A DNA stretch of 64,000 bases. It comes from Bacillota bacterium. Lineage in GTDB: Bacteria > Bacillota > Sulfobacillia > JABLXB01. The stretch spans positions 552,516 through 616,515 of the forward strand of contig JABLXB010000001.1 in the NCBI GenBank assembly GCA_013178305.1, given 5' to 3'. Positions 44,664 through 61,712 of the stretch are shown here, in pieces (position 1 is the first letter of the stretch; each line of letters begins with the position of its first letter). The notes beneath the pieces were generated by a model. The model was not told where the DNA came from, made no database searches, and saw nothing but the letters and a program-made list of their open reading frames with translations. The translations under genes and the position numbers were made by a program.

Positions 44664-46091
44664 CTACATCGCCTTCCCGGATCCGGTCGCCACTTCTTTC
44701 GGCTGCGTGACGGCCGATACAATAAGCGTCACAACGGCGGATGCCGCCACGCCGTACAGGATCCCGCTGAACCACGACACCGCCGCACCGACTATCAGCC
44801 CCAGACGGGAACCCCACGCCGTCAGGCGGCTGTTGTGCTCGCCCATCTCGAAGGGCCTTGAGTAGTCCTTCTTCCACAACAGGCCCACGAGCAGTACCGG
44901 CACCACGCTGCCGCCTGCGAGGGTATACGCTTTCGAGAACAGGCCGATGATCGAAGTGGCCTTGACTGCAGCATAGCACGCGAACACGCCGAGGACCACC
45001 GTGAGCCATTTCGCCAGCGACACCAGTTCCTTGTCCGATTTCTTGACGAACGGCCTGATAAGGTCATTGACTACGATGACCGCCGCCGAGTTCAGGTTCG
45101 AGTCCGCGCTGGACATGGCAGCCGCCAGGATGAGAGTGAACACCACGGCCGTCACCCCGAGGGGGACCTGCGTCATCATCATCCAGGGCATGGCGGAATT
45201 CGCTTGAAGTCCGGGGTTGATGGACCTGGCCACCAGGCCCACCATGGCCGTGAGGGACGTCGCGAAAATCACGAGGATACCGCTAATGAGCATGCCGTTC
45301 CTCGCCGTAGCGCTATCCTTCGCCGCGAAGCACCTCTGCCAGTATATCTGAGCCGCGAGTATACCGAAACAACCTGTAATGAACAGCTCCAGGAGCTTTA
45401 CCGCCGGCATCGACATACTCCACAGGTTACCCAGCCCGGCAGCGGTCAGGCGCTGGCCCAGGGTGGACAGGCTCCAGTTCACCGGCGCGAATGCGTAAAA
45501 ATAGAACACCATGCCGAATAGGACGACGATGATCCCCTGCAGCAGGTCGGTCCAGACAACCGAGTAGATACCGCCCAGCATGGTGTAGACGATGAACACC
45601 GCTGAGAACAGGACGATCATCAGGGTGGGGTCGGTCCCGGTGAACACCGCGAATATGTCACCGAGCCCTTTACCCTGGCCGCCCACCCACGCGATCATGA
45701 TGCATGTGGTGAGAACCCCGACGATGGCGCGGGAGATCTTGTCGCGGTGGAGCAGGTCCTCCATCATTTCCGAGAGGGTATGGTACGTAAACCTGCCGGC
45801 CATGCCCGCGAAGACAAGCGCAAATATGACCTTGGAGCCCTGTTCGCCGAAGACGAATGGGAGGTGTGACAGGCCCTTGGTGAAGCCCTGGGCCGCGTGG
45901 CCTATGAAGTTGCCGACCCCCATGATCGTCGCGATATCGGTGAACAGTATCAGTATGAGCGGCAGCGTCCCACCCGCGATGGCATAGGCCGAGAACGACT
46001 CGCTCGCCTTGTCTTGGACCTTGAACGAAATCCAAAGGAAGATCCCGCAGAAAACGATTGTGATTGCCCAGGTCATCCCAGCGAGGGTCAC
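44664..46091 (-). CDS. Sodium:solute symporter (SSS) family protein (2)
   Basis: A 475-residue transporter with 12-13 helices. Seen: GGTLPLILILFTDIATIMG, GGIYSVVWTDLLQGIIVVLF (signature) and AAAMSSADSNLNSAAVIVVND. The SSS family includes PutP proline importers; with the imino-acid dehydrogenase-like genes upstream, proline or a relative is a fair guess. GTG start at 46091 follows AAAGGAGGAA. It is the last intact gene of the sigma-54 unit. Confidence 0.92.
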   Translation of the reverse strand: MTLAGMTWAITIVFCGIFLWISFKVQDKASESFSAYAIAGGTLPLILILFTDIATIMGVGNFIGHAAQGFTKGLSHLPFVFGEQGSKVIFALVFAGMAGRFTYHTLSEMMEDLLHRDKISRAIVGVLTTCIMIAWVGGQGKGLGDIFAVFTGTDPTLMIVLFSAVFIVYTMLGGIYSVVWTDLLQGIIVVLFGMVFYFYAFAPVNWSLSTLGQRLTAAGLGNLWSMSMPAVKLLELFITGCFGILAAQIYWQRCFAAKDSATARNGMLISGILVIFATSLTAMVGLVARSINPGLQANSAMPWMMMTQVPLGVTAVVFTLILAAAMSSADSNLNSAAVIVVNDLIRPFVKKSDKELVSLAKWLTVVLGVFACYAAVKATSIIGLFSKAYTLAGGSVVPVLLVGLLWKKDYSRPFEMGEHNSRLTAWGSRLGLIVGAAVSWFSGILYGVAASAVVTLIVSAVTQPKEVATGSGKAM

Positions 46092-46200: not shown

Positions 46201-47958
46201 TCACGCCACGACCCCTCTCCGCCTGCGCCCGGCAGGCGCGGACATCTCCGACGTAAACTGGTCGAGTCTCGAGGGTGGGATATCGAACACCATGCCTGTA
46301 GGCGGCAGGGGTTCCTCATAGAAAAACGCCGGTAACCTGTCGTCTTCGGCCGTAAATCCTGCGAGGTCGTTAAACTCGTGCTCGTCCCGCAGCACTGACC
46401 TGGCGAGGCCGTCCAGGTACGATGGATCACACTCAATGCCCGGGCCGCACGCGATAATCCTGGCGAGCAGTGACAGGTCGTCGAGGAGCACGGCCCGCGT
46501 GAACCAGCAGAGTCCGAGCGTGTCCAGCAGGGCGGCAAGCTTCTGGAACTTCCTTGCGTACTCGATCTTGCCCTCGGATGAGGTCGCGTCGCCCGGGCCG
46601 CCCAGTCCGTTACCCATGGTGTGATCGGCACCCATTGTACTTGTTGAATACGTGACCCCCACACCCTTGAGAACCCGCGGGTCGTATGCGGCCAGCGACT
46701 GGTCCTTGACGACGGGAACCCGCTTGACCCCCAGCATCTTTCCAGTCACGGCGGTGCCCTGCCCGATCACGCGGCCCCATCCCTGCCCCCGGCCCGCAAG
46801 CCGCACCATCTCGAGCATCGCCGCGCCGTCCCCGAATTCCAGCAGCCCGCCCTCCATTGCCACGGCGATGGCCGCGCCGGTCTCCATGGTGTCGAGGCCG
46901 AGGTCGTCGCACATCCGGTCAAGCTTCGCGACCACGTCGAGGTCCCCTAGGCCGCAGTTGGAACCCAGCATGACGATCGTCTCGTACTCGAGGCCGGACG
47001 TTATGTACTCGCCACGCTCGTCCGGGTAGATGTTGGAGCACTTGATCACACAGCCGGGATAACAGGCGTGCCCCGTCTTGCCACCGCGGGTTTCCGTGTT
47101 GGTGGCCAGTCTTATACCGTCGATCTCGGTGGCCTTTTCGAACGCGCCAGCCGAGAAGTTCCTGGTGGGCATTGCTCCCAGCGAGTTCACAAAGTTGACG
47201 AGCGAGGCCGTGCCCCACTTGCGCAGGGTTACCGAAGTCGTGGGATGGGAATTGAGCGCGGCAACAAATTCCCTGACTGCGGACGTGAACCCCGACCTGT
47301 CGCCCACAGTGGGCGGCTCCGATCGCCCACTTATGACGACCGCCTTTACACCCTTGCTGCCCATCACCGCGCCGAGCCCGCCCCTGCCCGCATGCCTCGA
47401 GGGGAGGCCCTCCATGTTTGTCACGGCCACGCTGGCTGTGGGAAGAAGCAGCTCCCCGGCCGGACCGGTGCATACGATGGAAGCATCCTTACCGTACTCC
47501 GACCTCAGCTTTGCAGCCGTATCGTATGTGCCGAGGCCGGAGAGTCCGGCAGCCTCACGTATCTCACCGCCGTCCGGAGACAGGAACAGGACGTAGGGAC
47601 CCGGCACCGGCGGTATCCCTTCAATCACGACGGCGCCGATCCCCAGCCTGGAAAGAGCCTGACCCGCTGTACCGCCGACGTTCGACTCCTTGATCGTCCC
47701 GGTGAGCGGGCTCTTACCCCCCACCGATAGACGCCCGGCGCAGGGAACGCCACTTTGTCCCAGCAGCCCGGAAGCAAGGATTAGCTTATTCCTGCCGGAC
47801 ATCGGGCCCACGCGTGGGTCCATCTCGTCGAGAAGCATCGCGGCGATGAGCCCGCGCCCACCGAGATCTCTGTACCCGCGCGGGAATTCCTCCACCGTGA
47901 TACGCGGCCCCGAAGACATGTCCGCCCTGACGAGCTTCCTGCTGTCATTCTGGTTCAT
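46201..47958 (-). CDS. aor: Aldehyde ferredoxin oxidoreductase family protein (AOR3)
   Basis: A 585-residue AOR with a divergent N-terminus (DLGGRGLIAAMLLDEMDP). Seen: LTGTIKESNVGGTAG, GLGAVMGSKGVKAVVISG, and cluster ligands spaced C-x3-C-x3-C (ACYPGCVIKC, about residues 296-304) rather than C-x2-C-x3-C, with the distal Cys in LDTLGLCWF. It belongs to a different AOR branch from AOR1 and AOR4 and has no polyferredoxin beside it. It lies 14 bases after the DapA-like gene, in a unit with an imino-acid-type dehydrogenase, so a semialdehyde product such as 2-oxoglutarate semialdehyde is a candidate substrate. Confidence 0.9.
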   Translation of the reverse strand: MNQNDSRKLVRADMSSGPRITVEEFPRGYRDLGGRGLIAAMLLDEMDPRVGPMSGRNKLILASGLLGQSGVPCAGRLSVGGKSPLTGTIKESNVGGTAGQALSRLGIGAVVIEGIPPVPGPYVLFLSPDGGEIREAAGLSGLGTYDTAAKLRSEYGKDASIVCTGPAGELLLPTASVAVTNMEGLPSRHAGRGGLGAVMGSKGVKAVVISGRSEPPTVGDRSGFTSAVREFVAALNSHPTTSVTLRKWGTASLVNFVNSLGAMPTRNFSAGAFEKATEIDGIRLATNTETRGGKTGHACYPGCVIKCSNIYPDERGEYITSGLEYETIVMLGSNCGLGDLDVVAKLDRMCDDLGLDTMETGAAIAVAMEGGLLEFGDGAAMLEMVRLAGRGQGWGRVIGQGTAVTGKMLGVKRVPVVKDQSLAAYDPRVLKGVGVTYSTSTMGADHTMGNGLGGPGDATSSEGKIEYARKFQKLAALLDTLGLCWFTRAVLLDDLSLLARIIACGPGIECDPSYLDGLARSVLRDEHEFNDLAGFTAEDDRLPAFFYEEPLPPTGMVFDIPPSRLDQFTSEMSAPAGRRRRGVVA

Positions 47959-47972
47959 GGGGACCTCCCGCG

Positions 47973-48860
47973 TTATGGCTTCAAACCGTCCACGCCCACC
48001 CGTTCGAGAACCTGTTGCAAGCCACGCTCCTGCTCGGGCGACAGTTCCTCAAGCGGCGGCCGGCACGGGCCGCAGCGGAATCCAAGTACGTTGAGCGCCT
48101 TCTTCACGGGAATCGGGTTGGTGGCGACAAAAAGCCCCTTGAACAGGGGAAGTAATGAGAGGTGCTGGTCCCTGGCAGCGACCACGTCGCCGCAGACGAA
48201 TGCGTCTATCATGCGCCTGATCCGCGGGCCCGTTACGTGAGATGCCACGCTAACAACGCCGTGCCCACCGACAGCGAGGATCGGCAGGGTGAGGCTGTCG
48301 TCGCCCGAGTATATCCTGAACTCCCGCGGTGTGAGTGACCTGATCGCGCTGACCTGGTCGAGTGACCCACTGGCCTCCTTGATGGCAACGATGTCCGGTA
48401 CCTGGGCCAGGCGGGCGACCGTCTCGGGCAGCAAATTGACCCCAGTACGGCCGGGGATATTGTAGAGGATCGCGGGGACTCCGGCCTCATCCACGATCGC
48501 CCGGAAATGCCTGTACATACCCTCCTGCCCGGGCTTGTTGTAATAGGGGCAGACCAGCATGATCGCTCCTGCGCCGCTCTTGACGGCGCGCCTGGAGAGG
48601 CGTATCGAACCCTGGGTGGAGTTTGAGCCGGTCCCGGCGATCACCCGGCCGGTCCCAACCGCCTCAACCACGGCCTCGAGCAGGGCGATCTTCTCATCCT
48701 CCGTCAGGGCCGGCGCCTCGCCGGTCGTGCCGAATATCACGATGCTGTCAGACCCGCTCGCCACCAGGTGACGCGCGAGGGTCTTTGCGGCGTCCAGGTC
48801 CAGCGTCAGGTCATCCTTAAAGGGGGTTACCATCGCTGTTACTACGCGCCCCATATCCAT
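47973..48860 (-). CDS. dapA: DapA family lyase (dihydrodipicolinate synthase type)
   Basis: A 295-residue class I aldolase fold. Schiff-base Lys in VAIKEASGS, catalytic Tyr in AILYNIPGRTG, and TTGEAPALT, CPYYNKPGQEG, NPIPVKKALN match classical 4-hydroxy-tetrahydrodipicolinate synthase. The same family includes the deaminase LhpC of hydroxyproline catabolism. Context here is catabolic (dehydrogenase subunits, AOR, SSS importer), which speaks for a degradative role. Sequence motifs alone favour DapA, so the assignment is open. Confidence 0.85.
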   Translation of the reverse strand: MDMGRVVTAMVTPFKDDLTLDLDAAKTLARHLVASGSDSIVIFGTTGEAPALTEDEKIALLEAVVEAVGTGRVIAGTGSNSTQGSIRLSRRAVKSGAGAIMLVCPYYNKPGQEGMYRHFRAIVDEAGVPAILYNIPGRTGVNLLPETVARLAQVPDIVAIKEASGSLDQVSAIRSLTPREFRIYSGDDSLTLPILAVGGHGVVSVASHVTGPRIRRMIDAFVCGDVVAARDQHLSLLPLFKGLFVATNPIPVKKALNVLGFRCGPCRPPLEELSPEQERGLQQVLERVGVDGLKP

Positions 48861-48925: not shown

Positions 48926-50137
48926 CTACGCGGGCCTGCCACTGCATACCGCGTCAAATCGGGATAACGAGAACGGGCCAAGCGGCATTGATGTCTTCCC
49001 GGTGTCCAGGAGTTCCGCTATGAGCAAACCCGTGACCGGCGATAGCGCGATCCCATCCCCCTCGTGGCCCGCGGCCACGACGAACCCGGGCACGCCGTCG
49101 ACGGGACCGAGTATTGGCATGCCGTCGGGGGTATACGGCCGGAGCCCGGCGAAGGCCCTGATAAAATTGACCTGTCGCAGCCCGGGGACCAAGTTAATTG
49201 CGTGACGGGAGATTGCGACCAGAGCATCGTAGGTGTTGCGCGAGTCGTAGCCCGCGAATTCGCGGCACCCGCCCAGGAGCAGGTTGCCGTTCCGCGTCTG
49301 GCAGAGCGAAAGGCCGATCCCGAGGTCGGGGCCGGCGTCTCGAGAGGCGTTCAAGCCCTCTGCGCCGTCGTACACGGCCTTCCCCAGTTTAGCCACGAGG
49401 TACCGCGCGCACAACACGTCGCCGTGGACCAACCTTGGCATCTTCTCACTTACGAGGAGCTGGCCCCTCCTAGGCTTGATGGGCACCTCGACCCCCGCCA
49501 TCCGGCCGATCTGGGGCGCCCACGCGCCCGCCGCGTTGACCACCCATTGCCCGCGGGCGTTCCCCTTGTTGGTCGCCACCCCGGATACCCTGGGCCCGTC
49601 GAAAAGCAGCCCGGTGACGTCCCAGCCGGACAGGAAGCGCGCTCCGAGCCGCTTTGCCCCCACCATTAGCGCGCGCGTGAGGCAGAGCGGGTTGACCTCG
49701 GCGTCCACGGCGCTCCACGTGGCGCCCACGAGTCGATTCGAGGCCACGGGCAGGCGCCGCCTGACCTCCGATGCCGGAATCAGTCCAACCTCGAGCCCTG
49801 CCTTGCGCTGCCGTTCGACCAGCCCTTTCATCACCTCCAACTGCCGTTCGTCCTCTATCAGCACCATGCCGCCCGCGCGGGAGAACTGTATGTCCGTCTC
49901 CAGCTCACGCGCCAGGTCGTCAAACATGGCCACGCTCTTCATCGCGAGTTGCAGGTGCAGCCCGGGGCTTTTCGACTGCAGGATTGCGGCCTTGTCGCAG
50001 GCCCCCGACGAGCCCGAGCCGGCGTCGCCCCTGTCGAGAACGACGACTCGCTTCCCGCGCCTGGAAAGGTGATACGCGATGGAGCAGCCGATCACGCCGC
50101 CCCCAACTATGACGACCTCAGCCTCCGAAACCGTCAT
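48926..50137 (-). CDS. FAD-dependent amino/imino acid dehydrogenase, DAO-type (beta) subunit
   Basis: A 403-residue D-amino-acid-oxidase-fold flavoprotein. The dinucleotide site is VVIVGGGVIGCSIAYHLSRRG; later marks are AGGMVLIEDERQLEVMKGL, VVNAAGAWAPQIGRMAG and GLRPYTPDGMPILGPVDG. It resembles the catalytic subunits of HcnC, sarcosine/opine oxidases and dye-linked proline dehydrogenase. It is 3 bases after the ferredoxin/BFD gene, so it would oxidise the amine or imino acid inside a multi-subunit complex. Confidence 0.9.
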   Translation of the reverse strand: MTVSEAEVVIVGGGVIGCSIAYHLSRRGKRVVVLDRGDAGSGSSGACDKAAILQSKSPGLHLQLAMKSVAMFDDLARELETDIQFSRAGGMVLIEDERQLEVMKGLVERQRKAGLEVGLIPASEVRRRLPVASNRLVGATWSAVDAEVNPLCLTRALMVGAKRLGARFLSGWDVTGLLFDGPRVSGVATNKGNARGQWVVNAAGAWAPQIGRMAGVEVPIKPRRGQLLVSEKMPRLVHGDVLCARYLVAKLGKAVYDGAEGLNASRDAGPDLGIGLSLCQTRNGNLLLGGCREFAGYDSRNTYDALVAISRHAINLVPGLRQVNFIRAFAGLRPYTPDGMPILGPVDGVPGFVVAAGHEGDGIALSPVTGLLIAELLDTGKTSMPLGPFSLSRFDAVCSGRPA

Positions 50138-50140
50138 CCG

Positions 50141-51031
50141 TCAGATACCCTCGCCTTCTCGACTATCGCCGGTCTCGTTGGCCAGCACGGCGAGCGTCAC
50201 GGGCATCACGGGCGGCCGCACAGTCTCCCTGGCGACCCCGCCCGGCGGGGTGGCGGTTGCCCGCTCTATCTCCTGCATAACGAGCCGCCGGCACGTCCTC
50301 CCCTGGCACAGCCCCATGCCTGCGCGGGTCCACCGCCGCACCCCGCCCAGGGTTGTGGCCCCGTCGGCCAGGGCCTGCCTGATCTCCGCCATCGTGACCT
50401 CCTCACACCGGCAGACAAGCGTGTCATCGCCGTGGCTGAGGCCGTCGCCGTTCCCGGTGGGCCCGCAATCGCGCCCGGCGCCGCCTTCCCGCCCGGCGTA
50501 TTCCCCGCAGCGGCACGGCGCCGGCCTCATCATCGTACGCACCCGGGACGCGTGCTCCGGGGGTACCGCCAGGGTGACCACGCGGGTCCGGTCGTGACTG
50601 CGGGGGCAGGCGACCCTCACGACACTCGCCTCGCAGACCGGCTCCCCCTCCCTGTCGCACGCCACGACCCGATCGCCGGCCTCCGGTTCGGGCAGGTACT
50701 CCCAGGGAAACGACACGAGCGCGCGGTCTTCGCGGGACATGTCGACCACGAATATCGCCTGGCCGGGGCAGGCGGGGATACACATCCCACAGCCAGTGCA
50801 CTTCGTAGGGTCAATGCGGGGAAGGCAGGTTATCGGTTCGCCAACGGTGATGGCGCCGCGCGGGCACACCTTCTCGCAAGGGTTGCACGGGATCTCCTCA
50901 ACGCATTCGATGACCGCCCTGGGTCCCCGGCGCAACCAGTGCTCGGGCGTGAACCCCGGCGAAGCAATAAGCTCGGCCATCGACGGTACTCCGGTGAAGG
51001 CGACGCCATCCCGGGGGTTGCCTGCGTTCAT
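50141..51031 (-). CDS. Dicluster ferredoxin fused to BFD-like [2Fe-2S] domain
   Basis: A 296-residue protein with two parts. Residues about 45-100 hold a dicluster ferredoxin (CNPCEKVCPRG; CTGCGMCIPACPG). After a Gly-rich linker (with further Cys in CRCGEY) the C-terminal half is a BFD-like [2Fe-2S] domain (VCRCEEVTMAEIRQALADGA, CQGRTCRR). Separate small gamma/delta subunits carry these functions in dye-linked proline dehydrogenases, so this looks like a fusion of both. The ATG at 51031 overlaps the previous stop (ATGA). An earlier frame start is low-quality sequence. Confidence 0.87.
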   Translation of the reverse strand: MNAGNPRDGVAFTGVPSMAELIASPGFTPEHWLRRGPRAVIECVEEIPCNPCEKVCPRGAITVGEPITCLPRIDPTKCTGCGMCIPACPGQAIFVVDMSREDRALVSFPWEYLPEPEAGDRVVACDREGEPVCEASVVRVACPRSHDRTRVVTLAVPPEHASRVRTMMRPAPCRCGEYAGREGGAGRDCGPTGNGDGLSHGDDTLVCRCEEVTMAEIRQALADGATTLGGVRRWTRAGMGLCQGRTCRRLVMQEIERATATPPGGVARETVRPPVMPVTLAVLANETGDSREGEGI

Positions 51032-52173
51032 CCCGCGCACTCCTTCCCGGCCGCCGGCTTCTCGCTTGTCGCGCAATCGCCGGCCCTGACCTCGAATTTC
51101 CTGAGTATATCGTCTTTGGCCTGGCGCCTGTGAACGCCGAACGGCCCCTCTCGCAGCTGGCATAGCCGGTCCCAGACGCGCTGCATCCTGGATTCTGCCT
51201 CCGCCCTGCCAATGCGCCCGAGCGAGGACGCGGCGGCCAGGCCCGCGAGCCGGCCCTCCTCCATGGCGCTCGACGCCTCTTCCACCCCGGTGATGTCGCC
51301 GGCGACGAACAGGCCCGCCGTGGTGGTCTCCATTTCGCGGTTGTGAACCGGGATAAAGCCTCCGAGCCGGGAGTTGTGGATGAACTCGCACCCGGCCATC
51401 CACGCCAGTTCCGCCAGCGGGGTCAGCCCGACCGCAAGGCAGATGGTGTCAGCCCTGAATGTCCGCTCCGATCCCGAGACCGGTCGCCACGATTCGTCCA
51501 GCATCCCGATGGTGACCTCGGCGACCCGGCCCGGCCCGGTAGCCCGCAGAACCGTGTGTGAGCGGTAAATTGGGACTCCGGCCCGCCGGAGCTTGGACGC
51601 GTGCACTCCATAGCCGCCGATCTTCGGAGCGGCCTCAACCACGGCGACGACGTTGGCCCCTGCCTGAAGCAACTGGTACGAGACGATAAGCCCGACGTTC
51701 CCCGAGCCCACCATCACGACGTCCGAGCCCGGCAGCACCCTGTGCACGTTTATCATCGTCTGGGCCGCACCCGCCCCCATGACCCCCGGGAGGGTCCAAC
51801 CGGGGAACGGTATCGAGTTCTCAGACGCCCCGGTAGCCAGTAGTACCCTGTCAGCCTGCACCTTCTCGTGCCGGTCTCCTCGGTTGACGGCGAGTGTCCA
51901 CCCCGGAAACAGACCGTAGACCTGCGAGTCCAGCCAGACCTCCACCCCCGTATCGCTCAGGGTGGACAGCATCCGCCGGCCTATCTCAAACCCCCTGGTG
52001 CCCGCCTGATGCTCCGAGGAACCGAAAAACTTGTGGATCTGTTTGAACAGCTGGCCGCCCGGCTTCAGGTTCTCGTCTATGACGACAGTCCGGACGCCCG
52101 CCGAGCCTGCCTCGATGGCCGCCGCCAGGCCCGCGGGGCCCGCCCCGACGACCGCTAGTTCGAATCGCCGCAA
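51028..52173 (-). CDS. FAD/NAD(P)-binding dehydrogenase alpha subunit
   Basis: A 381-residue flavoprotein of the HcnB/sarcosine-oxidase-alpha type. Seen: AVVGAGPAGLAAAIEAGSAG, the second GVMGAG...VVMVGSGNVGLIVSY dinucleotide fold, and GLFVAGDITGVEEASSAMEEG. It lacks the C-terminal BFD-like domain that HcnB homologues carry; that domain sits in the next gene instead. It is preceded, with 19 bases overlap, by the [2Fe-2S] subunit gene. Confidence 0.9.
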   Translation of the reverse strand: MRRFELAVVGAGPAGLAAAIEAGSAGVRTVVIDENLKPGGQLFKQIHKFFGSSEHQAGTRGFEIGRRMLSTLSDTGVEVWLDSQVYGLFPGWTLAVNRGDRHEKVQADRVLLATGASENSIPFPGWTLPGVMGAGAAQTMINVHRVLPGSDVVMVGSGNVGLIVSYQLLQAGANVVAVVEAAPKIGGYGVHASKLRRAGVPIYRSHTVLRATGPGRVAEVTIGMLDESWRPVSGSERTFRADTICLAVGLTPLAELAWMAGCEFIHNSRLGGFIPVHNREMETTTAGLFVAGDITGVEEASSAMEEGRLAGLAAASSLGRIGRAEAESRMQRVWDRLCQLREGPFGVHRRQAKDDILRKFEVRAGDCATSEKPAAGKECAG

Positions 52174-52496
52174 CCGGAATCACTCCATTCGCCCAGACCG
52201 TGTTGCGTCCGGACTATCATGCCGTCCCTCGCCGGGGTGACGCACGTGCGCACGTTCGGGACGCCGTCCACGGTCATGACACAGTCGGTGCAGCGCCCGA
52301 TCGCGCAGAACACCCCTCTGGGCTCGTGCCTCACGGGTGTCGTCCTGAATGACGCCACCCCCGCCGCCATCAGGGCGGCCGCGATGGGCTCCCCCTCAAT
52401 GGCCTCCACTGGGCGACCGTCGAAGTCGATGATTACCGTGCGATCCGCCGGCGCCGCCCCCAGGATGGGATGGTCGATTATCCTCCACGTGGCCAA
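52155..52496 (-). CDS. [2Fe-2S] subunit, HcnA-like
   Basis: A 113-residue ferredoxin-like protein: RTVIIDFDGRPVEAIEGEPI at the N-terminus, then CAIGRCTDCVMTVDGVPNVR with TC following, giving a C-x4-C-x2-C...C site as in the HcnA/SoxA N-terminal small subunit. The TTG at 52496 with GGGGGCGAGG 6 bases upstream is preferred over earlier starts that add low-complexity sequence. It is the first gene of the unit, starting 54 bases after the sigma-54 -12 box. Confidence 0.85.
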   Translation of the reverse strand: MATWRIIDHPILGAAPADRTVIIDFDGRPVEAIEGEPIAAALMAAGVASFRTTPVRHEPRGVFCAIGRCTDCVMTVDGVPNVRTCVTPARDGMIVRTQHGLGEWSDSGCGDSN

Positions 52497-52549
52497 GCAG
52501 GCCTCGCCCCCTACACGTATGCAGATGCAGATTGCTTCAATAAGATTGG

Positions 52550-52565
52550 AGCAATATCCGTGCCA
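52550..52565 (-). promoter_or_regulatory. Sigma-54 (-24/-12) promoter
   Basis: On the minus strand TGGCACG-N4-TTGCT (52565-52550) matches the sigma-54 consensus TGGCACG-N4-TTGCW at every fixed position. It is 54 bases upstream of the [2Fe-2S] subunit start and directly downstream of the sigma-54 activator gene. Confidence 0.88.
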
Positions 52566-52569
52566 GGCG

Positions 52570-52606
52570 CAGAAACGAAAACGCCGCGGCGAGAAACCGC
52601 AGCGTT
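52570..52606 (-). terminator. Inverted repeat: regulator terminator or activator site
   Basis: AACGCCGCGGC (52580-52590) and ACCGCAGCGTT (52596-52606) pair in 9 of 11 positions. Read on the minus strand it is followed by TTTTCGTTTC, so it can terminate the regulator transcript, and it also lies 15-40 bases upstream of the -24 box where an activator might bind. Confidence 0.5.
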
Positions 52607-52676
52607 GTTGGGCGAGCAAAGCCGGGGCGTCCTGTCCGAATACCCCAGCGTGCCTTCTTATTTCAAGAATTTATTA

Positions 52677-54371
52677 CTAGGCTTTAGAATTGCCGTCTCC
52701 ATTGATGGCGTACAGGCGCATCTTGTTGTAGAGAGTAGCCAGGGAGATCCCGAGCGCCCTGGCGGCCATTCGCTTGCCTTCGGTCGAGTTGCCGTATTGC
52801 AGGATAGCCCTTCGCAGGGCGTCGCGCTCGAGGCCGGCGAGGTTCAACCCCGCCTCCCGGTTCCCCCACGCCGGACTCCGGTCCCCGTGCGGAAGGCATG
52901 CCTGCAGGTTCGTGGCCGAGATCACATCCTCCTCGCTCAGCAACACTGCCCTCTCGAGCACGTTCGCCAGCTCGCGGACGTTTCCGGGCCAGTGATGACC
53001 AGTCAGCAACCGCATCGCTTCCGGCAGTATTCCCGTGACGCTCTTTCCGAGTCGCCTGTTGAGCTGCTCGATGAACCGTTCCACCAGCATGGGGATATCT
53101 TCCACGCGCTCCCTCAAAGACGGAACGTTGAGCGCCACCACGTTCAGCCGGTAGAAGAGGTCCTCCCTGAACCGGCCAGCCGCCACGTCGGCCTTGAGGT
53201 CCCTGTTTGTGGCAGCAAGTATCCGGACGTCGACGGTTATCGGCTTCGTTCCACCGAGCCGCTCGAATTCCCTGAACTGCAGGAGGCGCAGCAGCTTGGC
53301 CTGGACCGCTATCCCGAGCTCTCCGACCTCGTCGAGGAGGATAGTCCCCCCATCGGCGAGCTCGAATTTCCCAACCTTCGTCCTGGAGGCGCCGGTATAG
53401 GCCCCCTGTTCGTGCCCCATGAGCTCGCTTTCCATGAGGTTTTCGGGGATGGCGGCGCAATTCACCTTGATGAACGGCCCGTTCCGCCTCGGGCTCGCGT
53501 TGTGGATCGCGTGCGCGAACAGCTCCTTGCCGGTGCCGCTCTCGCCCTGTATGAGTACCGTGGTATCGGTGCCGGCGACCTTCCTGGCTATCCGTACCGC
53601 TTCCTTCATCGGGTTGCTTTCGCCGATTATGTCTTCAAAGGTAAACTCGCTTCCCTGGAACTGCTCGAGGCGGTTAGTGAGTTGCTTGATCAGCCGGTTT
53701 CGTTCGTCGAGCTCCTTGATCAGCCTGTTCATCTTGGTGATATCCTGGAAAACCACCACGGAGCCCACCATTTCCCCATTCACGAAGATCGGCGACGCGT
53801 TGGACAGGACCTCGGCTTTCGAACCCACCGCCCTGTTCCTCAGCCCGAACACGTCCTTGCCCGTCTTCAGCGCCTTTACCAGGGCCCCGTCGGGGGATAC
53901 TTCAAACGCGCTCCTCCCGATCCGCTCAGACGCAGGGACTCCGGTTATCGACGTGAACGCGGGGTTGACGTAGCGGATGATGCCGTTCCTGTCGGCGAGC
54001 TGCACGCCCTCCTGAACTGCGTTGAGGATGGTGTCGAACTTCCGTTTCTCCTCGACTATGACCATCAAGGCATCGAAGGAGAGTCCGGAGATGACCTCCG
54101 TCGAGCCCGCCTTGCTCCCGATTACCTCGCGCAGCAGTGACTCGTCGCCAACGACCACCACACCGGGGTTCACCGCGGAGAGCAGGGCTTGAAGATCCCC
54201 GAAGATGCGGAACCTGACGTCCGGCACGTGCTGAGGGGGTGGATACAATCCGACCAGCTCCACGAGCTCGCTGGAGGCGAGGCTCTCCAGGAGGGACAGT
54301 ACCTCCTTGCCTCCGCCCACGAGGCCCACATGCAGGCGCGTGCGAGACTCATCTGTGTTGTTGCCGCTCAC
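52677..54371 (-). CDS. Sigma-54-dependent transcriptional activator
   Basis: A 564-residue enhancer-binding protein. Residues 1-110 form an N-terminal sensing region (LHVGLVGGGKEVLSLLES), followed by a PAS domain (about 110-215) and a coiled-coil linker. The AAA+ domain (245-480) has Walker A GESGTGKE, GAYTGA in place of GAFTGA (a tolerated variant) and Walker B TILLDEVGEL. A Fis-type helix-turn-helix ends the protein (AARALGISLATLYNKMRL). The GTG at 54371 has GGGGGAAT upstream; longer frames are poor. It is immediately upstream of the sigma-54 promoter and probably controls the dehydrogenase-AOR3 unit. Confidence 0.92.
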   Translation of the reverse strand: MSGNNTDESRTRLHVGLVGGGKEVLSLLESLASSELVELVGLYPPPQHVPDVRFRIFGDLQALLSAVNPGVVVVGDESLLREVIGSKAGSTEVISGLSFDALMVIVEEKRKFDTILNAVQEGVQLADRNGIIRYVNPAFTSITGVPASERIGRSAFEVSPDGALVKALKTGKDVFGLRNRAVGSKAEVLSNASPIFVNGEMVGSVVVFQDITKMNRLIKELDERNRLIKQLTNRLEQFQGSEFTFEDIIGESNPMKEAVRIARKVAGTDTTVLIQGESGTGKELFAHAIHNASPRRNGPFIKVNCAAIPENLMESELMGHEQGAYTGASRTKVGKFELADGGTILLDEVGELGIAVQAKLLRLLQFREFERLGGTKPITVDVRILAATNRDLKADVAAGRFREDLFYRLNVVALNVPSLRERVEDIPMLVERFIEQLNRRLGKSVTGILPEAMRLLTGHHWPGNVRELANVLERAVLLSEEDVISATNLQACLPHGDRSPAWGNREAGLNLAGLERDALRRAILQYGNSTEGKRMAARALGISLATLYNKMRLYAINGDGNSKA

Positions 54372-54481: not shown

Positions 54482-55993
54482 TCAGGCGGGCTTCCCTATA
54501 CGCCCGAGTCTTTGGCGAATGGTACCGTAGCAAGGGGCTAACAGGGTAACAACCGCCAGTACCATGAACGCAACAGACAAGGGCCGCTTGAAGAACACGA
54601 GGACATCCCCATAAGCAATGAGCAACGACGTCCAGTAGCTTGCCTCCATGATCGGTCCCAGGATGAGAGCGAGCAGGAACGGCGCCATGGGAAACCCCGC
54701 CTTGCCCAGGCAATAGGCGATGACGCCCGTTATGACCATGACTGCCACGTTCATCATACTGTTGGCTGAGGAATATGCTCCGACCACGCAAATCACCAGA
54801 ATTGTTGGGGCCAGAACCTGCAGCGGAGTCCGCACTATGTAGTGCCCGACCTGCACGACGAGGTGCCCTAAGAGAAAGAACAGGATATTCACCAGGAAGA
54901 AACCGGCGAAAAACGTGTAGACGATCTGGGGATTCTTGTGCATAAGGTGGGGACCCGGTTGGATTCCCTTCATGATGAGGGCCCCAAGCAGCACCGCTGC
55001 GGCGGCCGATCCGGGGATGCCAAGCGCGAGAGTCAACACCAGGTCGCCACCCGTCGCCGCGTTGTTGCCGGTCTCGCTAGCGACAAGGCCATCTGGCTCT
55101 CCGCTCCCGAACCGCTCCGGGTGTGCGGAGGAACGCTTCGCCTCGTTATATGACATGTACGCTGCCATTGACGGACCGGCGGCAGGGGCTATTCCTATGA
55201 TTATCCCGATAATCGAGGACTTCACTATTGTGCCCCAATACCGGAGGATCTCCCCGGGAGCAAGATACCACTTCCGCGACGTTGACTCAGCGTAGAATAC
55301 GTTTCTGGTGCGGAGGTCCTCTATCATTTCAAGAACGCGGGGTAGCGCCAGAGCGCCGAGAATCAGCGGAACGAAGTCGATCCCGCCGATGAAGTAGTAG
55401 TTGCCGAACGTAAGACGGATGTAGCCGTTGACGGGATCTGCACCTACAGTGCTCACGACGAGCCCAACTACCGCCATGATGAGTCCCTTGATCGCGTCTT
55501 TGCCGACTACACTGGAGACCATCGATATTCCCCACAGGGTCAGGGCAAACATCTCCGGCGGGCCAAACCTCAGTGCCCATATTGCGATGACCGGTGTGAG
55601 GGTGATGAGTACGAGCGCGCTGGCGAGGCCGCCTATTCCGGAAGCATACAAAGAGTATAACATGGCCTCACGTGCTTTGCCCGCCCTCGCCATGGGAAAA
55701 CCGTCGAACGCGGTGGGAATGGAAGCCGCTGTGCCGGGTATGCCAACGAGAATCGCCGAGATCGACCCTCCGTACACTGCCCCACAGAAAACCCCCGCAA
55801 GCATCAGAAGGCCCGCGTCAATGCTCATCCCGAAAGTCAGCGGCAATAGCAGTGCCATGCCGGTCGTGGCAGAAAGCCCTGGTAGAGCTCCAATAACTAT
55901 CCCCAGGAGCGTACCGCCGGTCATGGCTATCACGTTGGTCAATGACAGGGCACTAATGAACCCGCTGATGACTAATCGGACTATCTCTCCCAA
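54482..55993 (-). CDS. tctA: TctA family tripartite tricarboxylate transporter permease
   Basis: A 503-residue large permease. Seen: GTLLGIVIGALPGLSATTGMA, AGVFCGAVYGGSISAILVGI, PGTAASIPTAFDGFPMAR (the TctA signature) and LTLALGIPGSAAAAVLLGALIM. It partners TctB and TctC to import a carboxylic acid with sodium or protons. It is separated by 21 bases from TctB. Confidence 0.95.
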   Translation of the reverse strand: MGEIVRLVISGFISALSLTNVIAMTGGTLLGIVIGALPGLSATTGMALLLPLTFGMSIDAGLLMLAGVFCGAVYGGSISAILVGIPGTAASIPTAFDGFPMARAGKAREAMLYSLYASGIGGLASALVLITLTPVIAIWALRFGPPEMFALTLWGISMVSSVVGKDAIKGLIMAVVGLVVSTVGADPVNGYIRLTFGNYYFIGGIDFVPLILGALALPRVLEMIEDLRTRNVFYAESTSRKWYLAPGEILRYWGTIVKSSIIGIIIGIAPAAGPSMAAYMSYNEAKRSSAHPERFGSGEPDGLVASETGNNAATGGDLVLTLALGIPGSAAAAVLLGALIMKGIQPGPHLMHKNPQIVYTFFAGFFLVNILFFLLGHLVVQVGHYIVRTPLQVLAPTILVICVVGAYSSANSMMNVAVMVITGVIAYCLGKAGFPMAPFLLALILGPIMEASYWTSLLIAYGDVLVFFKRPLSVAFMVLAVVTLLAPCYGTIRQRLGRIGKPA

Positions 55994-56014
55994 TTGGCCG
56001 ATCTACCTCCCGGC

Positions 56015-56404
56015 TTAAGGCAAGGGCACGCCAAAAACGTGTACAAAGGGCCAGTATATGGCGACAGTCACTGCGGCGGAGATCAAAGCCACCTTAATCT
56101 TGCTCGCCCGATATCCCGCCAGGATAATCGATACAAATAGCAGTGTCACTGTAGAGACAATGAAACCGACTCTAGGCAACGCGATTACATACGCGATCAG
56201 CAATGCCGCCCCGGCAGCGACATCCCGGACATTTCTGAACGAGCATGTCGAGCCGGCTTTCAGCACCGCCAGGGGGACACTCAATGCCATCAGGATCACC
56301 AGGAGACCACCTGGAAAGGCCGCAGCCTCTAGAGGAGCTGTCCTCAGCGAAAACAATAGGAATAAAGCCACAACAAGCATGACTACTGCAATCAATCGCT
56401 CCAT
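56015..56404 (-). CDS. tctB: TctB family small permease
   Basis: A 129-residue membrane protein with four helices (MERLIAVVMLVVALFLLFSL, then FPGGLLVILMALSVPLAV, ALLIAYVIALPRVGFIVST, and a final one). The GFIVSTVTLLF stretch is typical. ATG at 56404 is chosen; earlier in-frame starts add polar residues. Confidence 0.85.
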   Translation of the reverse strand: MERLIAVVMLVVALFLLFSLRTAPLEAAAFPGGLLVILMALSVPLAVLKAGSTCSFRNVRDVAAGAALLIAYVIALPRVGFIVSTVTLLFVSIILAGYRASKIKVALISAAVTVAIYWPFVHVFGVPLP

Positions 56405-56483
56405 CTGCACATCACCATTTACGGGTCTGACCGGGGCGCGATGACCTGCCGCACCCCAGTCAGACTCGAGTGTTATGTTCACG

Positions 56484-57482
56484 CTATTTCTTCATGAGAC
56501 CAGCCCGATCAATGATCTTCTTGTACGTCTCATGAGATGCCTTGATCAACTCGTTCGTTGCATCAGGCCCCTTGAATACGTAGCCTATGCCTGCATCTTT
56601 GTAAGCTTTTTTAAGATCCGGATCGTTCATGGCTTTTTCGAAGATGTCATATAGCCCCTTCGCGATATTGTCGGGGGTGCCGCGCGGGACAGCCAGGATC
56701 CTCCAGACACTGAGGTCAACGGCGATGCCTTTCTCAGTGAAGGTTGGTACATCCGGCCACGCTGCCAGTCGCTGCAGTCCAGAGTGGGCGAGGACTTTGA
56801 GCTGACCGGAGTCGACCTGGCCGGCAATCTCAGACGGATACGGTACTCCGGCGTCAAGGTCTCCCGCCAGAATACTCATCACTATCTGAGCCCCACCTTT
56901 TACCGATACCCTCTGGAACTTCACGCCCGTAGCCATCTCTATCTGCTCGCGCACGTAGTCGTGGTTGGTCCAGTTACCTGAAACGCCGATCCTGATTTTT
57001 TGGGGGTTCTGCTTGGCGAAAGCGATGAACTCATCGAGCGCCTTGTCGTACGGGCCACCCTTCTTTACGACGAGGCAGTTGGGGTCCGCGGCGATTTGAC
57101 AAATCGGCCTGAACGAATCGTACTTGTATTGCACACCTGGAACGAGGTACTGGTCGGTGACCAGGGAAATCGCCATCTGCCCGATAGTATAGCCGTCGGG
57201 TGGGGCCTGGAGCACTTTGGTGTAGGCCACAACACCTGCTCCCTGATCCTCATTGAGGATATTGACCGGTTGACCTGCGTACTTGCTGGCGAACTGGGCA
57301 AATATCCTTGCGGTAGTGTCGTGTCCCCCGCCCGGCTTCGATGGGACTACTATCGTCAGAGGTTTCGTGGGTTTCCAGGCTTCTCCCTTTGACTGAGAAG
57401 CGTTCGACGAGCAACCCGATGCAAACACGGCCAGAAGTACGACGGCAAGCCACAATACTGTAGTTCGGTTACGGCTAACCAT
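56484..57482 (-). CDS. tctC: TctC/Bug family solute-binding lipoprotein
   Basis: A 332-residue periplasmic-type receptor. The signal peptide ends in a lipobox AVFASGC. Seen: TIVVPSKPGGGHDTTARIFA, ATGVKFQRVSVKGGAQIVMS, LAGDLDAGVPYPSEI and RGTPDNIAKGLYDIFEKAM. This Bug family binds di- and tricarboxylates or aromatic acids. It is encoded just after the RraA-like aldolase gene, and its ATG at 57482 follows GGGGGA. Confidence 0.93.
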   Translation of the reverse strand: MVSRNRTTVLWLAVVLLAVFASGCSSNASQSKGEAWKPTKPLTIVVPSKPGGGHDTTARIFAQFASKYAGQPVNILNEDQGAGVVAYTKVLQAPPDGYTIGQMAISLVTDQYLVPGVQYKYDSFRPICQIAADPNCLVVKKGGPYDKALDEFIAFAKQNPQKIRIGVSGNWTNHDYVREQIEMATGVKFQRVSVKGGAQIVMSILAGDLDAGVPYPSEIAGQVDSGQLKVLAHSGLQRLAAWPDVPTFTEKGIAVDLSVWRILAVPRGTPDNIAKGLYDIFEKAMNDPDLKKAYKDAGIGYVFKGPDATNELIKASHETYKKIIDRAGLMKK

Positions 57483-57498
57483 TCTCAATTCCCCCTAT

Positions 57499-58308
57499 CT
57501 ATGAGTTCCCCCGCGGGCTGTCCGTATTGTATCGCTTTCTGTAGAAGGGCTTGAGTTCCGCTATCGGCACCTTCCTGTTTATGAGATCCCGCATGTGAGT
57601 CTCTTCCTGGAGAATCGACCTGACCTTCTCCAGTACGAGCTGCACTTTGTCGGCAGGTACGATACACACCCCCGAATCGTCCGCCACAACCAGGTCGCCG
57701 GGGATTACCTGAACGTCGTGAAGGGTTACCGGCCCGTTGATCTCGATGGCTTCAATCCGGAATTTTCCGGTTATCGGGGTACGCCCACGGCACCATACCG
57801 GATAGTCCATCTGCCTGATAGCAGGAAGATCGCGTACTGCCCCGTTCACCACGGCGCCTATCAGGCCGCAGGATCTGGCTACAGTACAGGACTGGCCACC
57901 CATGTTCGAGACGTCGAGATTGCCTCCGAAATCCGCAACCAGGATGTCTCCGGGCTCCGCCAGGTAATATGCATCGCGGGTGGCCATTCGAATTGTGTCG
58001 TGGTCGTAGTACCCCTGGGTCGTGGTCTTGCGCTCTGGAATGCTCCTGAGCGTAATCGCGGTGCCGGCGATCTTCTTGTCCGGGATGACCGGAGCTATGT
58101 ACGATGCCGCGACTGCGCCATTCAATCCCAGGGAGTCCAGTACATCCGATATGGTACTCGTCAGGTCGTGCAGCTTCATGAACTGGTCCACTACTTCCTT
58201 CGGCACCCTCGGGAACTTGATCTTCCTGATGCGGTCCTGAGGTACACCACCCCAAATACGCCCCTGCTCCTTGTATTCCTGATACTCCCTTTCCAGTTCA
58301 CCGGACAC
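57499..58308 (-). CDS. RraA-like / HMG aldolase family protein
   Basis: A 269-residue RraA-fold protein. Seen: LTSTISDVLDSLGLNGAVA, VADFGGNLDVSNMGGQSCTV, and LIGAVVNGAVRDLPAIRQMD (the Arg-Asp of the G-x20-RD motif that binds metal and substrate). In this family, aldolases cleave 4-hydroxy-4-methyl-2-oxoglutarate or oxaloacetate. Beside a TctABC importer, a catabolic aldolase is more likely than an RNase regulator. The GTG at 58308 is chosen for its GGGGGGC site. Confidence 0.85.
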   Translation of the reverse strand: MSGELEREYQEYKEQGRIWGGVPQDRIRKIKFPRVPKEVVDQFMKLHDLTSTISDVLDSLGLNGAVAASYIAPVIPDKKIAGTAITLRSIPERKTTTQGYYDHDTIRMATRDAYYLAEPGDILVADFGGNLDVSNMGGQSCTVARSCGLIGAVVNGAVRDLPAIRQMDYPVWCRGRTPITGKFRIEAIEINGPVTLHDVQVIPGDLVVADDSGVCIVPADKVQLVLEKVRSILQEETHMRDLINRKVPIAELKPFYRKRYNTDSPRGNS

Positions 58309-58373
58309 CCAGATAGCCCCCCGTTTACAGCGTAGTGAATTTGCGGATCGTGCGTCAGGCCTCGCGGGTCGGC

Positions 58374-59108
58374 CTATTTCACCCGGCGAACGTAGGCCTT
58401 CCACCGGTACCTGTCCGCGCGATAGTAGGAAATGCCGCGTATTATCGCCTCGTCCTTTTCCTCGCCATACATCACCACCCGGCGTACGAGGAGAGGGCTT
58501 CCCTTGTGAACGCCCAGATCTCGGGCTTCCCGTGCCGACGCGACCGTCCCCTCAATCTCCATCTCCAGGCCGTCCCACTTGACCCCCGCTTGTTCTGCCA
58601 AAACGCGGTGCACCACGTTGCCCTCTACCTTGTCAGCATCAAGTACGTCAGCCCACGGGGCCCTAACCCAGCGATAGTCGATAACGAGCGGGATGTCATC
58701 GGCAAAACGAAGACGGTCGATGAACAGAACGCGAGTCTGGGGGGCAATCCGGAGCGCCGCAGCCACTTCGGACGGGGCCGGCATCCACTCAAGTCTGCGA
58801 ACCTGGGTTCTCACACTTCTACCTTGATGGGTCCATTCATCGAAGAAGCTGGACAGTTCGTTCACGTTTTCCTCGATTGGGCGCTGGTGTGAAACGAATA
58901 CTCCAACACCTTTGAGGCAGTATATGTGGCCTTCGCGGATCAGGTCGTCTATGGCCTGCCTTACGGTAAGACGATTGACCCCAAATCTCTTGGCCAGGCT
59001 CGCAATGGTGTACGTCTCTCCCTCTTGCCGGTCGCGCAGTATCTCGTCTCGCAGGATCTCACGTATCTGCGCGTAGAGAGGGATGGGCGAGTGCCTATCA
59101 ATGCTCAT
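58374..59108 (-). CDS. GntR family regulator, UTRA (HutC) domain
   Basis: A 244-residue repressor-type regulator. Winged helix: IPLYAQIREILRDEI, then ASLAKRFGVNRLTVRQAI, then YCLKGVGVFVSHQ. The UTRA domain follows (SSFFDEWTHQGRSVRTQVRR, LRIAPQTRVLFIDRLRFADD). It precedes the aldolase and TctCBA genes, and its palindromic operator lies 40 bases upstream. It would respond to a substrate or intermediate of that unit. Confidence 0.93.
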   Translation of the reverse strand: MSIDRHSPIPLYAQIREILRDEILRDRQEGETYTIASLAKRFGVNRLTVRQAIDDLIREGHIYCLKGVGVFVSHQRPIEENVNELSSFFDEWTHQGRSVRTQVRRLEWMPAPSEVAAALRIAPQTRVLFIDRLRFADDIPLVIDYRWVRAPWADVLDADKVEGNVVHRVLAEQAGVKWDGLEMEIEGTVASAREARDLGVHKGSPLLVRRVVMYGEEKDEAIIRGISYYRADRYRWKAYVRRVK

Positions 59109-59634
59109 GTGAGCACCTCACTCAGGCTAGGGAAACTGGAACGCAATGATAGATATCTATATATCTATCCTAAACTGGGAGGAAGGGACGTGTCAACAAA
59201 TTCTCTTTTCACCGCTAGCAGGAAATCGCCGCTGGGGGCGGGGGTCATGGCGAAGGCCGACAGGCGACGGCGGAGTATACCGTCAGGTTTGCGCGACGTC
59301 GGAGAACCGGGCCCCGGACTCGGCCCCTGAAGCAACGGTGGTTTCCTCTTCTTCACAGGCGAGCAGGAAGCCCCCGTATCCAGGGATTACTATTGACGAT
59401 GCAAAAAGGAGAATGTAGATTCGTTTGAGCATTGATTATCTTCCTCCGTTTCCCCCTGCACATTGTGATTCGGTGAAAAACGATACCAGTCTTTACCGTA
59501 GACTCAACTGGAGAGGTATTGGGCGGTAAACCTATGGTAGGTGGAGGAGGTTACTGAAGCAAAGACTACCGACACCGCCGTACGGCACGAGTTCGCTTCT
59601 GACCCTACCGCCACGTGGCATTATTGACAACGAC
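59109..59634. other. Gap between AOR4 3' end and the UTRA regulator
   Basis: This 526-base stretch holds the regulator's operator (listed separately). Otherwise I see no convincing gene, tRNA or terminator; a short weak hairpin (AGTCT/AGACT near 59490) could end the AOR4 transcript. Confidence 0.5.
59148..59169. promoter_or_regulatory. Operator of the UTRA regulator
   Basis: GATAGATA (59148-59155) and TATCTATC (59162-59169) are perfect inverted arms separated by 6 A/T-rich bases, 40 bases before the regulator start. It is AT-rich in a GC-rich setting and has the length and symmetry of a GntR/HutC site. Confidence 0.7.
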
Positions 59635-61698
59635 CTAGATCTGCTCGCAAAGACGACCAACGTGTTCCAACGTGCAGACAACTTCCTTCAAGCCGAGAGA
59701 CTCCAGAACCTCTCGCTTCGGGTACCCAGTGGCCACGTCCCAGCCGCGGGCTTCGTAGTATTCATCGAGCATGGGTGCCAGATTGACCACGTGTCCCTGC
59801 GAAGGCCCTGACGTTATCGGTTCCTCGAGGAAACGCCTGCAGAGGGTGTCGTCGGCCTTCGTCAGACCCTGGAGGACGTTGAACGCACGCTCCACATTCA
59901 CGGCGCGCTCGCCAGCCCGCATGACTTCATCCGGCGACATATCGATGCCAGTAACGACGCGAAAGAATCGCGCCTCCCATTCGGGGTACATAAGGGCAGT
60001 ACGTACGATAAACTTACAGATGCCCAGCGAGTCAGCGGCCGCGCGCTGGTCTTCCGACCACTTCACCAACCGGCCCTTCCCCACTGTGCCGTGGGGCATG
60101 ACAGCCTCCGCCGTGCCAAACATGGCGACTGCCTCGTCCGGGGTGAAGAAGGTCTCACCAGTGGGCAGCCCGCGCAGGTGACACCCGCCCCTGCTCGCGA
60201 CGGCGTAGCCGAGTCCCCACGCGGGGGCGGCCCTCGGGTCGCTGAGGCCGGGGTCCTGGCCCTTCGAATGAATCACGAAGTCCGAGCTGCCACGGCCGAC
60301 CGCCTGCGCGGCCCTGTACGCGCCCTCGCCCAGCAGCCTCGAGAAGTCGTCCTGCCTGTGAGCGATGGCAGGCAACAGGTCGAGGATGGCCCGGACTCCG
60401 CCCCACTCCATCACTCGTCCGTTGGTGTCGCCCTCGTCCAGGATCCCCTTCTGCCACGCCTCCATCGCCCAGGCAATCGTGCTCGCGGTGTTCATCGTGT
60501 CGAGGCCGAGGCGGTTGCACAGGGTGTTTGCCATCAGGATCGACTCCGTGTCGGCGTTCCCGAGCTTCGACCCGAATCCGGCGATGGTGACGTATTCAGG
60601 CCCCTCGCCGCACGCGCCGGCGTATGGGCCCTCATCTATGTTGCAGGAATGACTACAGTGCAGCGGGCATGAGAAGCACGCCCGCGATCCGTTCCAATAC
60701 TGCCACATCGAGGTGGCGGACAGAGACTTCCACCCGTCGAACTGGGACCTCTGGTAGTTCAGCGTAGCGAGGCGGCCGAGCTTCTGGTGGCTCTCGATGA
60801 GTGATGGAGTCCCATCCCGGGAGTACTGCTGAGACCACGGGTCGGTGCTCAGGGTCCTGACAGCATCCTGGAACGCCGCGCGCATCGCGTCGGCATTGGC
60901 GACGCGCACGCCTCCGGTTCCTTTCACCGCCACCGCCTTGAGATTCTTCGAGCCCATTACGGCGCCAATGCCGCACTTGGCGGCAGCCCGGGATAGGTGG
61001 GTGATTATCGCCGCAAGGCGCACGAGGTTTTCCCCGGCCGGACCGATGGACGCTATCTGGACACCCTCATCGCCCAGTTCGTGATGGATGGCGGAATCGC
61101 ACTCCCATGTGTCCAGGCCCCACAGGTGTGAGGCGTCACGGATCTCCACTTGCTCGTCCCGGATAAACAGGTACACTGGCTTTTCAGAAGCACCGCGGAC
61201 AATGACCTGGTCGAAGCCGGAGTACTTTAGCTCCGCGCCGAAGAATCCCCCGAAGTTGGAGTCCCCAAAGCAGGGGCTGGTCGCAGGAGTCGCGGCAGCG
61301 CCCGGTACGGTCGCCTGACCATCTCCGGTCGCACCGCCGCCCTGTGTGCCACGCCCCATCCCGACCACTGTAAGCGGCGAGATAGCGGTAATCGTACACC
61401 GGCTGGCCCCCGGCACCAGCGTTCCCACGAGAGGCCCAACGCCGAACACGAGCAGGTTTTCCGGGCCGAGCGGGTCAACTCCGCGCCCGCCCAGACCGAG
61501 AATTGTAGCCGAGTTCAGACCCCTGCCACCCAGGTAAAGCATCAGCATCTCGGGGTCGATGTCCTCAACCTGTACCGAGCGCCGAGTCAGGTCGACGATA
61601 AGCCGGCGGCCCGTCCAACCACCGCGGCGTACACGGCCTCTGCCACAAGTTCGGCCACCTCCAGCCGGGCTGCTTATACGCGCAGTCACGCGGGCCAC
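59635..61698 (-). CDS. aor: Aldehyde ferredoxin oxidoreductase family protein (AOR4)
   Basis: A 687-residue AOR, longer than AOR1 (612). Core marks: GGRGLNSATILGLGG, GPAGENLVRLAAI, GAVMGSKNLKAVAVKG, the cluster ligands ACFSCPLHC (about residue 337) and the distal Cys in DSLGICKF. It resembles AOR1 (HLWGLDT, DEYYEARGWD) and likely shares its type of substrate. Odd: a Gly/Ala/Thr-rich insert of about 30 residues falls between SPLT and GDSNFGG, where other AORs have none, and the N-terminal 25 residues are Arg/Gly-rich. It lies 14 bases after the DUF1445 gene in the Liv ABC unit. Confidence 0.9.
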   Translation of the reverse strand: MARVTARISSPAGGGRTCGRGRVRRGGWTGRRLIVDLTRRSVQVEDIDPEMLMLYLGGRGLNSATILGLGGRGVDPLGPENLLVFGVGPLVGTLVPGASRCTITAISPLTVVGMGRGTQGGGATGDGQATVPGAAATPATSPCFGDSNFGGFFGAELKYSGFDQVIVRGASEKPVYLFIRDEQVEIRDASHLWGLDTWECDSAIHHELGDEGVQIASIGPAGENLVRLAAIITHLSRAAAKCGIGAVMGSKNLKAVAVKGTGGVRVANADAMRAAFQDAVRTLSTDPWSQQYSRDGTPSLIESHQKLGRLATLNYQRSQFDGWKSLSATSMWQYWNGSRACFSCPLHCSHSCNIDEGPYAGACGEGPEYVTIAGFGSKLGNADTESILMANTLCNRLGLDTMNTASTIAWAMEAWQKGILDEGDTNGRVMEWGGVRAILDLLPAIAHRQDDFSRLLGEGAYRAAQAVGRGSSDFVIHSKGQDPGLSDPRAAPAWGLGYAVASRGGCHLRGLPTGETFFTPDEAVAMFGTAEAVMPHGTVGKGRLVKWSEDQRAAADSLGICKFIVRTALMYPEWEARFFRVVTGIDMSPDEVMRAGERAVNVERAFNVLQGLTKADDTLCRRFLEEPITSGPSQGHVVNLAPMLDEYYEARGWDVATGYPKREVLESLGLKEVVCTLEHVGRLCEQI

Positions 61699-61712
61699 AT
61701 TCCGTTCATGCC

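Follow-up and report, generated by a model that had tools for sequence, protein, structure and literature searches.

Promoters read by sigma-54 RNA polymerase carry the -24/-12 consensus TGGCACG-N4-TTGCW, and their transcripts usually start 12 nt downstream of it. Gene clusters for the degradation of trans-4-hydroxy-L-proline combine a racemase, a flavin/Fe-S dehydrogenase and a deaminase of the DapA family. In the sections used here of a survey of 57 Clostridiales, a total of 490 sigma-54 activators is given, from 1 to 35 per genome and mostly one-component PAS proteins; most predicted targets are co-localised with their own activator gene, and 38 of 263 activators are not clustered with their targets (PMC6615313). 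In the same sections, the consensus used for Clostridiales is TTGGCATNNNNNTTGCT, GAYTGA is described as a tolerated loop variant that is still active, and an AorR group is predicted to drive aor-moaD (PMC6615313). Up to 67 activators are mentioned for Clostridia in the part of a second study that we consulted (PMC12316311).

In this study we analysed a stretch of 64,000 nucleotides (the window) from a Bacillota bacterium of the class Sulfobacillia, whose genome assembly comprises 3.4 Mb in 22 contigs and is 97.7% complete. We consider it about 90% probable that the site at 52550-52565 is the sigma-54-dependent promoter of an operon which starts near 52501 on the minus strand, with the adjacent PAS-type activator as its regulator. 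The features of the locus are listed in Table 1.

Table 1. Features of the activator-operon locus; positions are those of the window.
Feature	Position	Strand	Basis
Sigma-54 activator (enhancer-binding protein), PAS + Sigma54_activat AAA+ + C-terminal HTH_50	52677..54356	-	domain matches
Weak palindrome TTCTTGAAATAAGAA directly past the activator stop, candidate activator-binding site	52657..52671	-	palindrome search
Intrinsic terminator-like hairpin, 11-pair stem, tail TTCGTTTCTG, in the activator-promoter gap	52580..52606	-	terminator scan
Putative sigma-54 -24/-12 promoter TGGCACGGATATTGCT	52550..52565	-	exact consensus match
Imperfect 11-bp inverted repeat ATTGCTCCAATCTTATTGAAGCAAT, covering the -12 box and the predicted start	52531..52555	-	repeat search
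2Fe-2S subunit (Fer2_4), HcnA/sarcosine-oxidase-alpha-like dehydrogenase	52155..52501	-	domain matches
FAD / Pyr_redox_2 subunit (HcnB / SoxA-like)	51028..52173	-	domain matches
4Fe-4S + BFD [2Fe-2S] subunit	50141..51031	-	domain matches; start set at the ATG overlapping the preceding stop
DAO-family FAD dehydrogenase (glycine oxidase / D-amino-acid dehydrogenase-like)	48926..50137	-	domain matches
DapA-family (DHDPS) protein	47973..48860	-	domain matches
AOR3, short aldehyde:ferredoxin oxidoreductase family protein	46201..47958	-	domain matches
Sodium:solute symporter (SSF)	44664..46091	-	domain matches

The sigma-54 site and its activator gene

The initial annotation had reported agreement with all fixed positions of the consensus, naming no strand; the match is indeed complete and lies on the minus strand (TGGCACG-GATA-TTGCT), with GG at -24, GC at -12 and the fixed spacing TGGCAC-N5-TTGCW. 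From the usual distance, the transcript is predicted to start near 52539 on the minus strand. Exact TGGCACG-N4-TTGCW occurs once in the window against 0.02 expected, and 2 of 100 dinucleotide shuffles of the window held any exact match. When up to two mismatches are allowed, 16 matches are found against 23.6 expected; these loose matches are no commoner than chance, so that only the exact one is informative and the weak ones are noise. The sole match with one mismatch (55842-55857, minus strand) lies within tctA.

The site lies 111 nt past the stop codon of the activator gene, which corroborates the reported location directly after such a gene, and about 50 nt ahead of a run of seven minus-strand genes, presumably an operon for amine oxidation. 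The activator scores 238.6 bits for Sigma54_activat, 41.5 bits for PAS and 27.2 bits for HTH_50 (cut-off 27), and its AAA+ loop, of the GAFTGA type, reads GAYTGA. Its start codon is unsettled, as the open frame continues to 54791. Absence of rpoN, named beforehand as a refuting result, is excluded by one full-length RpoN of 468 aa in the genome, with AID, CBD and DBD in a single protein. Weak matches to the RpoN DNA-binding domain (25 and 20 bits) are also present at C1:229462-229617 and C1:206263-206412 (L002 and L003), in open frames of 1008 and 1056 aa which also bear a sigma-54 activator domain.

Upstream of the activator gene, a minus-strand cluster at 54482-62498 encodes TctA, likely TctB, TctC, an RraA-like aldolase, a GntR/UTRA regulator, a second AOR and a D-glutamate cyclase family protein. 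Close behind this cluster lies the gene for the activator, which may be co-transcribed with it.

Organization of the operon and the preceding gap

The Fer2 and FAD subunit genes overlap, as do those of the FAD subunit and the BFD protein. The next gaps up to AOR3 are 3, 65 and 14 nt, and 109 nt separate AOR3 from the symporter gene. Since this last gap also contains a weak terminator-like site (46139-46122), membership of the symporter in the transcript is uncertain, a doubt that seems limited to this gene; it is probably part of the operon. The proposal that the site is placed to drive a dehydrogenase-AOR3-symporter unit is supported by position, orientation and gene order, and the symporter is its weakest link.

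Read along the minus strand, the activator stop is followed by the palindrome, the terminator-like hairpin, the sigma-54 site, a ribosome-binding-like stretch (AGGGGGCGAGG) and the TTG start of the Fer2_4 gene. An activator-binding site (UAS) would be expected about 100-250 bp upstream of the promoter. No exact TGT-N10-12-ACA was found in the 180 bp upstream of the site, and the palindrome is no better than chance, as 224 of 300 shuffles of the same stretch hold an equal one. The inverted repeat, one arm of which is the -12 box, was reached in 17 of 2000 shuffles of the promoter and 17 of 200 of the region; with these marginal statistics it is a possible operator at the promoter. Apart from it, the motif, palindrome and repeat searches revealed nothing above chance here.

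We propose that the PAS-type enhancer-binding protein would most likely respond to a small molecule, for which the substrate of the pathway or one of its products is plausible, bind DNA upstream of the promoter and, through its AAA+ domain, open the sigma-54 RNA polymerase. The transcript of the activator gene itself would end at the hairpin, so that the operon could be switched separately. The genes for the Fer2 and FAD subunits, the BFD/ferredoxin protein, the DAO dehydrogenase, the DapA-like protein, AOR3 and probably the symporter would then be transcribed together.

Recurrence within the genome

A PF00158 profile search of the genome gave 43 matches. The 36 that score 84 bits or more correspond to 35 genes, as a split activator on contig 6 accounts for two of them, and the seven weaker ones were left out. 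For each activator, the best site was sought in a segment that reaches from 60 nt ahead of the stop codon to 400 nt past it, the maximum score being 20.2. Sites scoring at least 17 were found on the same strand for 22 of the 35 activators and on the opposite strand for none; at a score of 18 or more the counts are 17 and 0. Thirteen of the 35 have no good site in the downstream position. Among 3000 random 460-bp segments drawn from the same loci, real sites included, 7.6% reach 17 and 4.0% reach 18.

The scan for further sites that the initial annotation had recommended was fruitful, and the site's description as the only one holds for the window, not for the genome. Exact TGGCAC-N5-TTGCW occurs nine times genome-wide (two for the reversed-pattern control), and TGGCAY-N5-TTGCW 16 times (seven for the control). 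Six of the nine and 11 of the 16 lie 33-230 nt past an activator stop, with binomial tails of 1e-15 and 6e-28, respectively, under the assumption of uniform placement. An intrinsic-terminator-like hairpin was detected by scan between activator and site in six of the 22 loci. Upstream of the 22 pooled sites, TGT-N10-12-ACA occurs 15 times (two overlapping), in eight loci, against 1.5 expected; this enrichment supports the pooled sites as activator-controlled promoters. At one locus (L045, G000:C6:8369-8871) either an in-frame stop or a change of frame splits the activator inside its AAA+ domain, through decay or an assembly error, and the sigma-54 site downstream is still perfect.

On this sequence evidence the promoter at 52550-52565 is almost certainly real but ordinary, as the same layout recurs in the genome. 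Both the layout and the number of activators are already known from Clostridiales and Clostridia, and neither is therefore new.

The genome also leaves some room for an improbable arrangement in which the site does act as a sigma-54 promoter but is served by an activator encoded elsewhere, and its neighbour controls other genes. About 35 activators are available for this, no binding site was recognised at the window locus, and the unclustered minority of activators in the sections cited above (PMC6615313) provides a precedent; against it, activators and sites in this genome are as a rule neighbours on the same strand, as holds in those sections for most activators, and the window holds no second exact site. 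Less credible still is a chance match, in which case the operon would depend on a housekeeping promoter or on transcription that runs on from the activator gene. The chance-level frequency of loose matches in the window would suit such an origin, but an exact match falling in an intergenic gap, when so few are expected across the whole window, argues against it. Read-through would also have to pass the terminator-like hairpin, the scan of the gap between activator and operon detected no sigma-70-like site, and the recurrence at 22 of 35 loci is strand-specific.

Recurrence in other genomes

The comparison set comprised 28 activators at 27 loci of other genomes, 19 from the same class and eight from named genomes outside it. 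Sites scoring at least 18 follow 13 of the 28 activators on the same strand and none on the opposite strand; at 17 or more the counts are 15 and 3. Within the class, 12 of 19 loci have a site of at least 18 on the same strand and none of the 19 on the opposite strand, and outside the class one of eight does, in Desulfoluna (L049). The top-scoring activators elsewhere are only about 37-50% identical to the window activator, too distant to serve as orthologues in a base-by-base comparison of the promoter.

At one locus from another family (L129, G058), an activator 41% identical to that of the window is followed by a perfect sigma-54 site. The genes behind it encode, in order, a protein of 378 aa, a symporter-like one, an AOR, a small protein, an Fe-S protein, Fer2, the FAD subunit, BFD and DAO, and two further genes come after these. 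Where BLAST gave no match, as for the symporter-like protein, names were assigned by eye from the sequence. This promoter type was thus found twice, in the window and in L129, together with genes for the same dehydrogenase, an AOR and a symporter.

Related clusters and the likely pathway

Clusters of a racemase, Fer2, FAD subunit, BFD, DAO, DapA-like and AOR genes were found in the same genome (L092, G000:C2:338000-353000) and in two others (L096 in G015, with an extra gene after the racemase, and L125 in G041), which together represent three different families of the class. The L092 racemase scores 464 bits for proline racemase (cut-off 556) and 350 bits for 4-hydroxyproline epimerase (cut-off 376), both under the cut-off. 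We take a cluster of the L092 type to encode the start of hydroxyproline degradation, where the AOR would presumably sit at semialdehyde oxidation. These relatives point to a pathway of the hydroxyproline type with an AOR as its last enzyme.

No proline or hydroxyproline racemase was found at the window operon; the strong match in the genome lies at C2:348751-349719. The DapA-like protein and AOR3 of the window are 32% and 30% identical to their L092 counterparts, which, together with the missing racemase, makes it likely that the substrate of the window operon is related to that of L092 and not the same. No comparable sigma-54 site precedes the first gene of the L092, L096 or L125 cluster, and sigma-54 control therefore does not always accompany these enzymes. 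Sigma-54-like sites near L096 (8632) and L125 (14333, opposite strand) were rejected as support, as neither is upstream of the first cluster gene.

A total of 19 AOR-family genes and one broken copy are present in the genome; four genes of this family lie in the window, near 12360, 34815, 46300 and 59690. A relative of AOR3 in L028, 47% identical, likewise has an activator gene ahead of it, together with a site of the sigma-54 type (AGGCATGGAACTTGCT).

Tentatively, and with less than even confidence, we suggest that the promoter switches on an anaerobic oxidation of imino acids or D-amino acids, in which a tungsten/molybdenum enzyme of the AOR family, and not an NAD(P)-linked dehydrogenase, would oxidise a semialdehyde such as 2-oxoglutarate semialdehyde and pass the electrons to ferredoxin. 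The genome would then hold two versions, one with a racemase and of hydroxyproline type, the other with a symporter and under sigma-54 control. Among the papers searched, which were mainly open-access, we found none that joins AOR with hydroxyproline or proline racemase, or tungsten with ketoglutarate semialdehyde.

The sites behind activator genes provide a map of probable pairs of activators and catabolic operons in this genome. Inducer tests could thereby reveal the substrates of uncharted pathways, among them the pathways of AOR3, of its L028 relative and perhaps of further AOR enzymes. The operon itself may be a hint that cyclic amino acids are processed by a route that depends on an AOR.

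Comparison with known systems

The best-scoring NCBIfam model for the window activator is PrdR, the proline-responsive sigma-54 activator. This assignment was rejected, as the 425.1 bits are far under the equivalog cut-off of 795 bits; unlike in the PrdR system, no proline reductase genes are among those identified in the window operon. With the trans-4-hydroxy-L-proline clusters, the operon shares the flavin/Fe-S dehydrogenase subunits and a DapA-family gene, with DAO and DapA-family genes in the same order. It differs from them in its distant DapA, in an AOR that takes the place expected for a semialdehyde dehydrogenase and in the lack of a racemase at the locus, for which reason the assignment as a hydroxyproline operon was rejected.

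The locus resembles the sigma-54 operons of Clostridiales, as described in the sections used here, in its one-component PAS activator beside a single target operon, its -24/-12 site and its amino-acid/fermentation genes (Nie et al. 2019, PMC6615313). It departs from them in having no TGT-N10-12-ACA, and an operon of flavin/Fe-S dehydrogenase, DapA-like, AOR and symporter genes is not among the targets seen in those sections (PMC6615313). Assignment to the AorR group was likewise rejected, on the missing upstream motif and on the target, which is not aor-moaD: no moaD-like protein was found among the scanned operon proteins. As in the portion of that study which deals with AorR, a sigma-54 activator is predicted to drive an AOR gene; there the activator has a TGT-N10-12-ACA site and its aor-moaD target is assigned to alcohol synthesis (PMC6615313), whereas AOR3 in the window is the sixth gene, a late one, of an oxidative operon.
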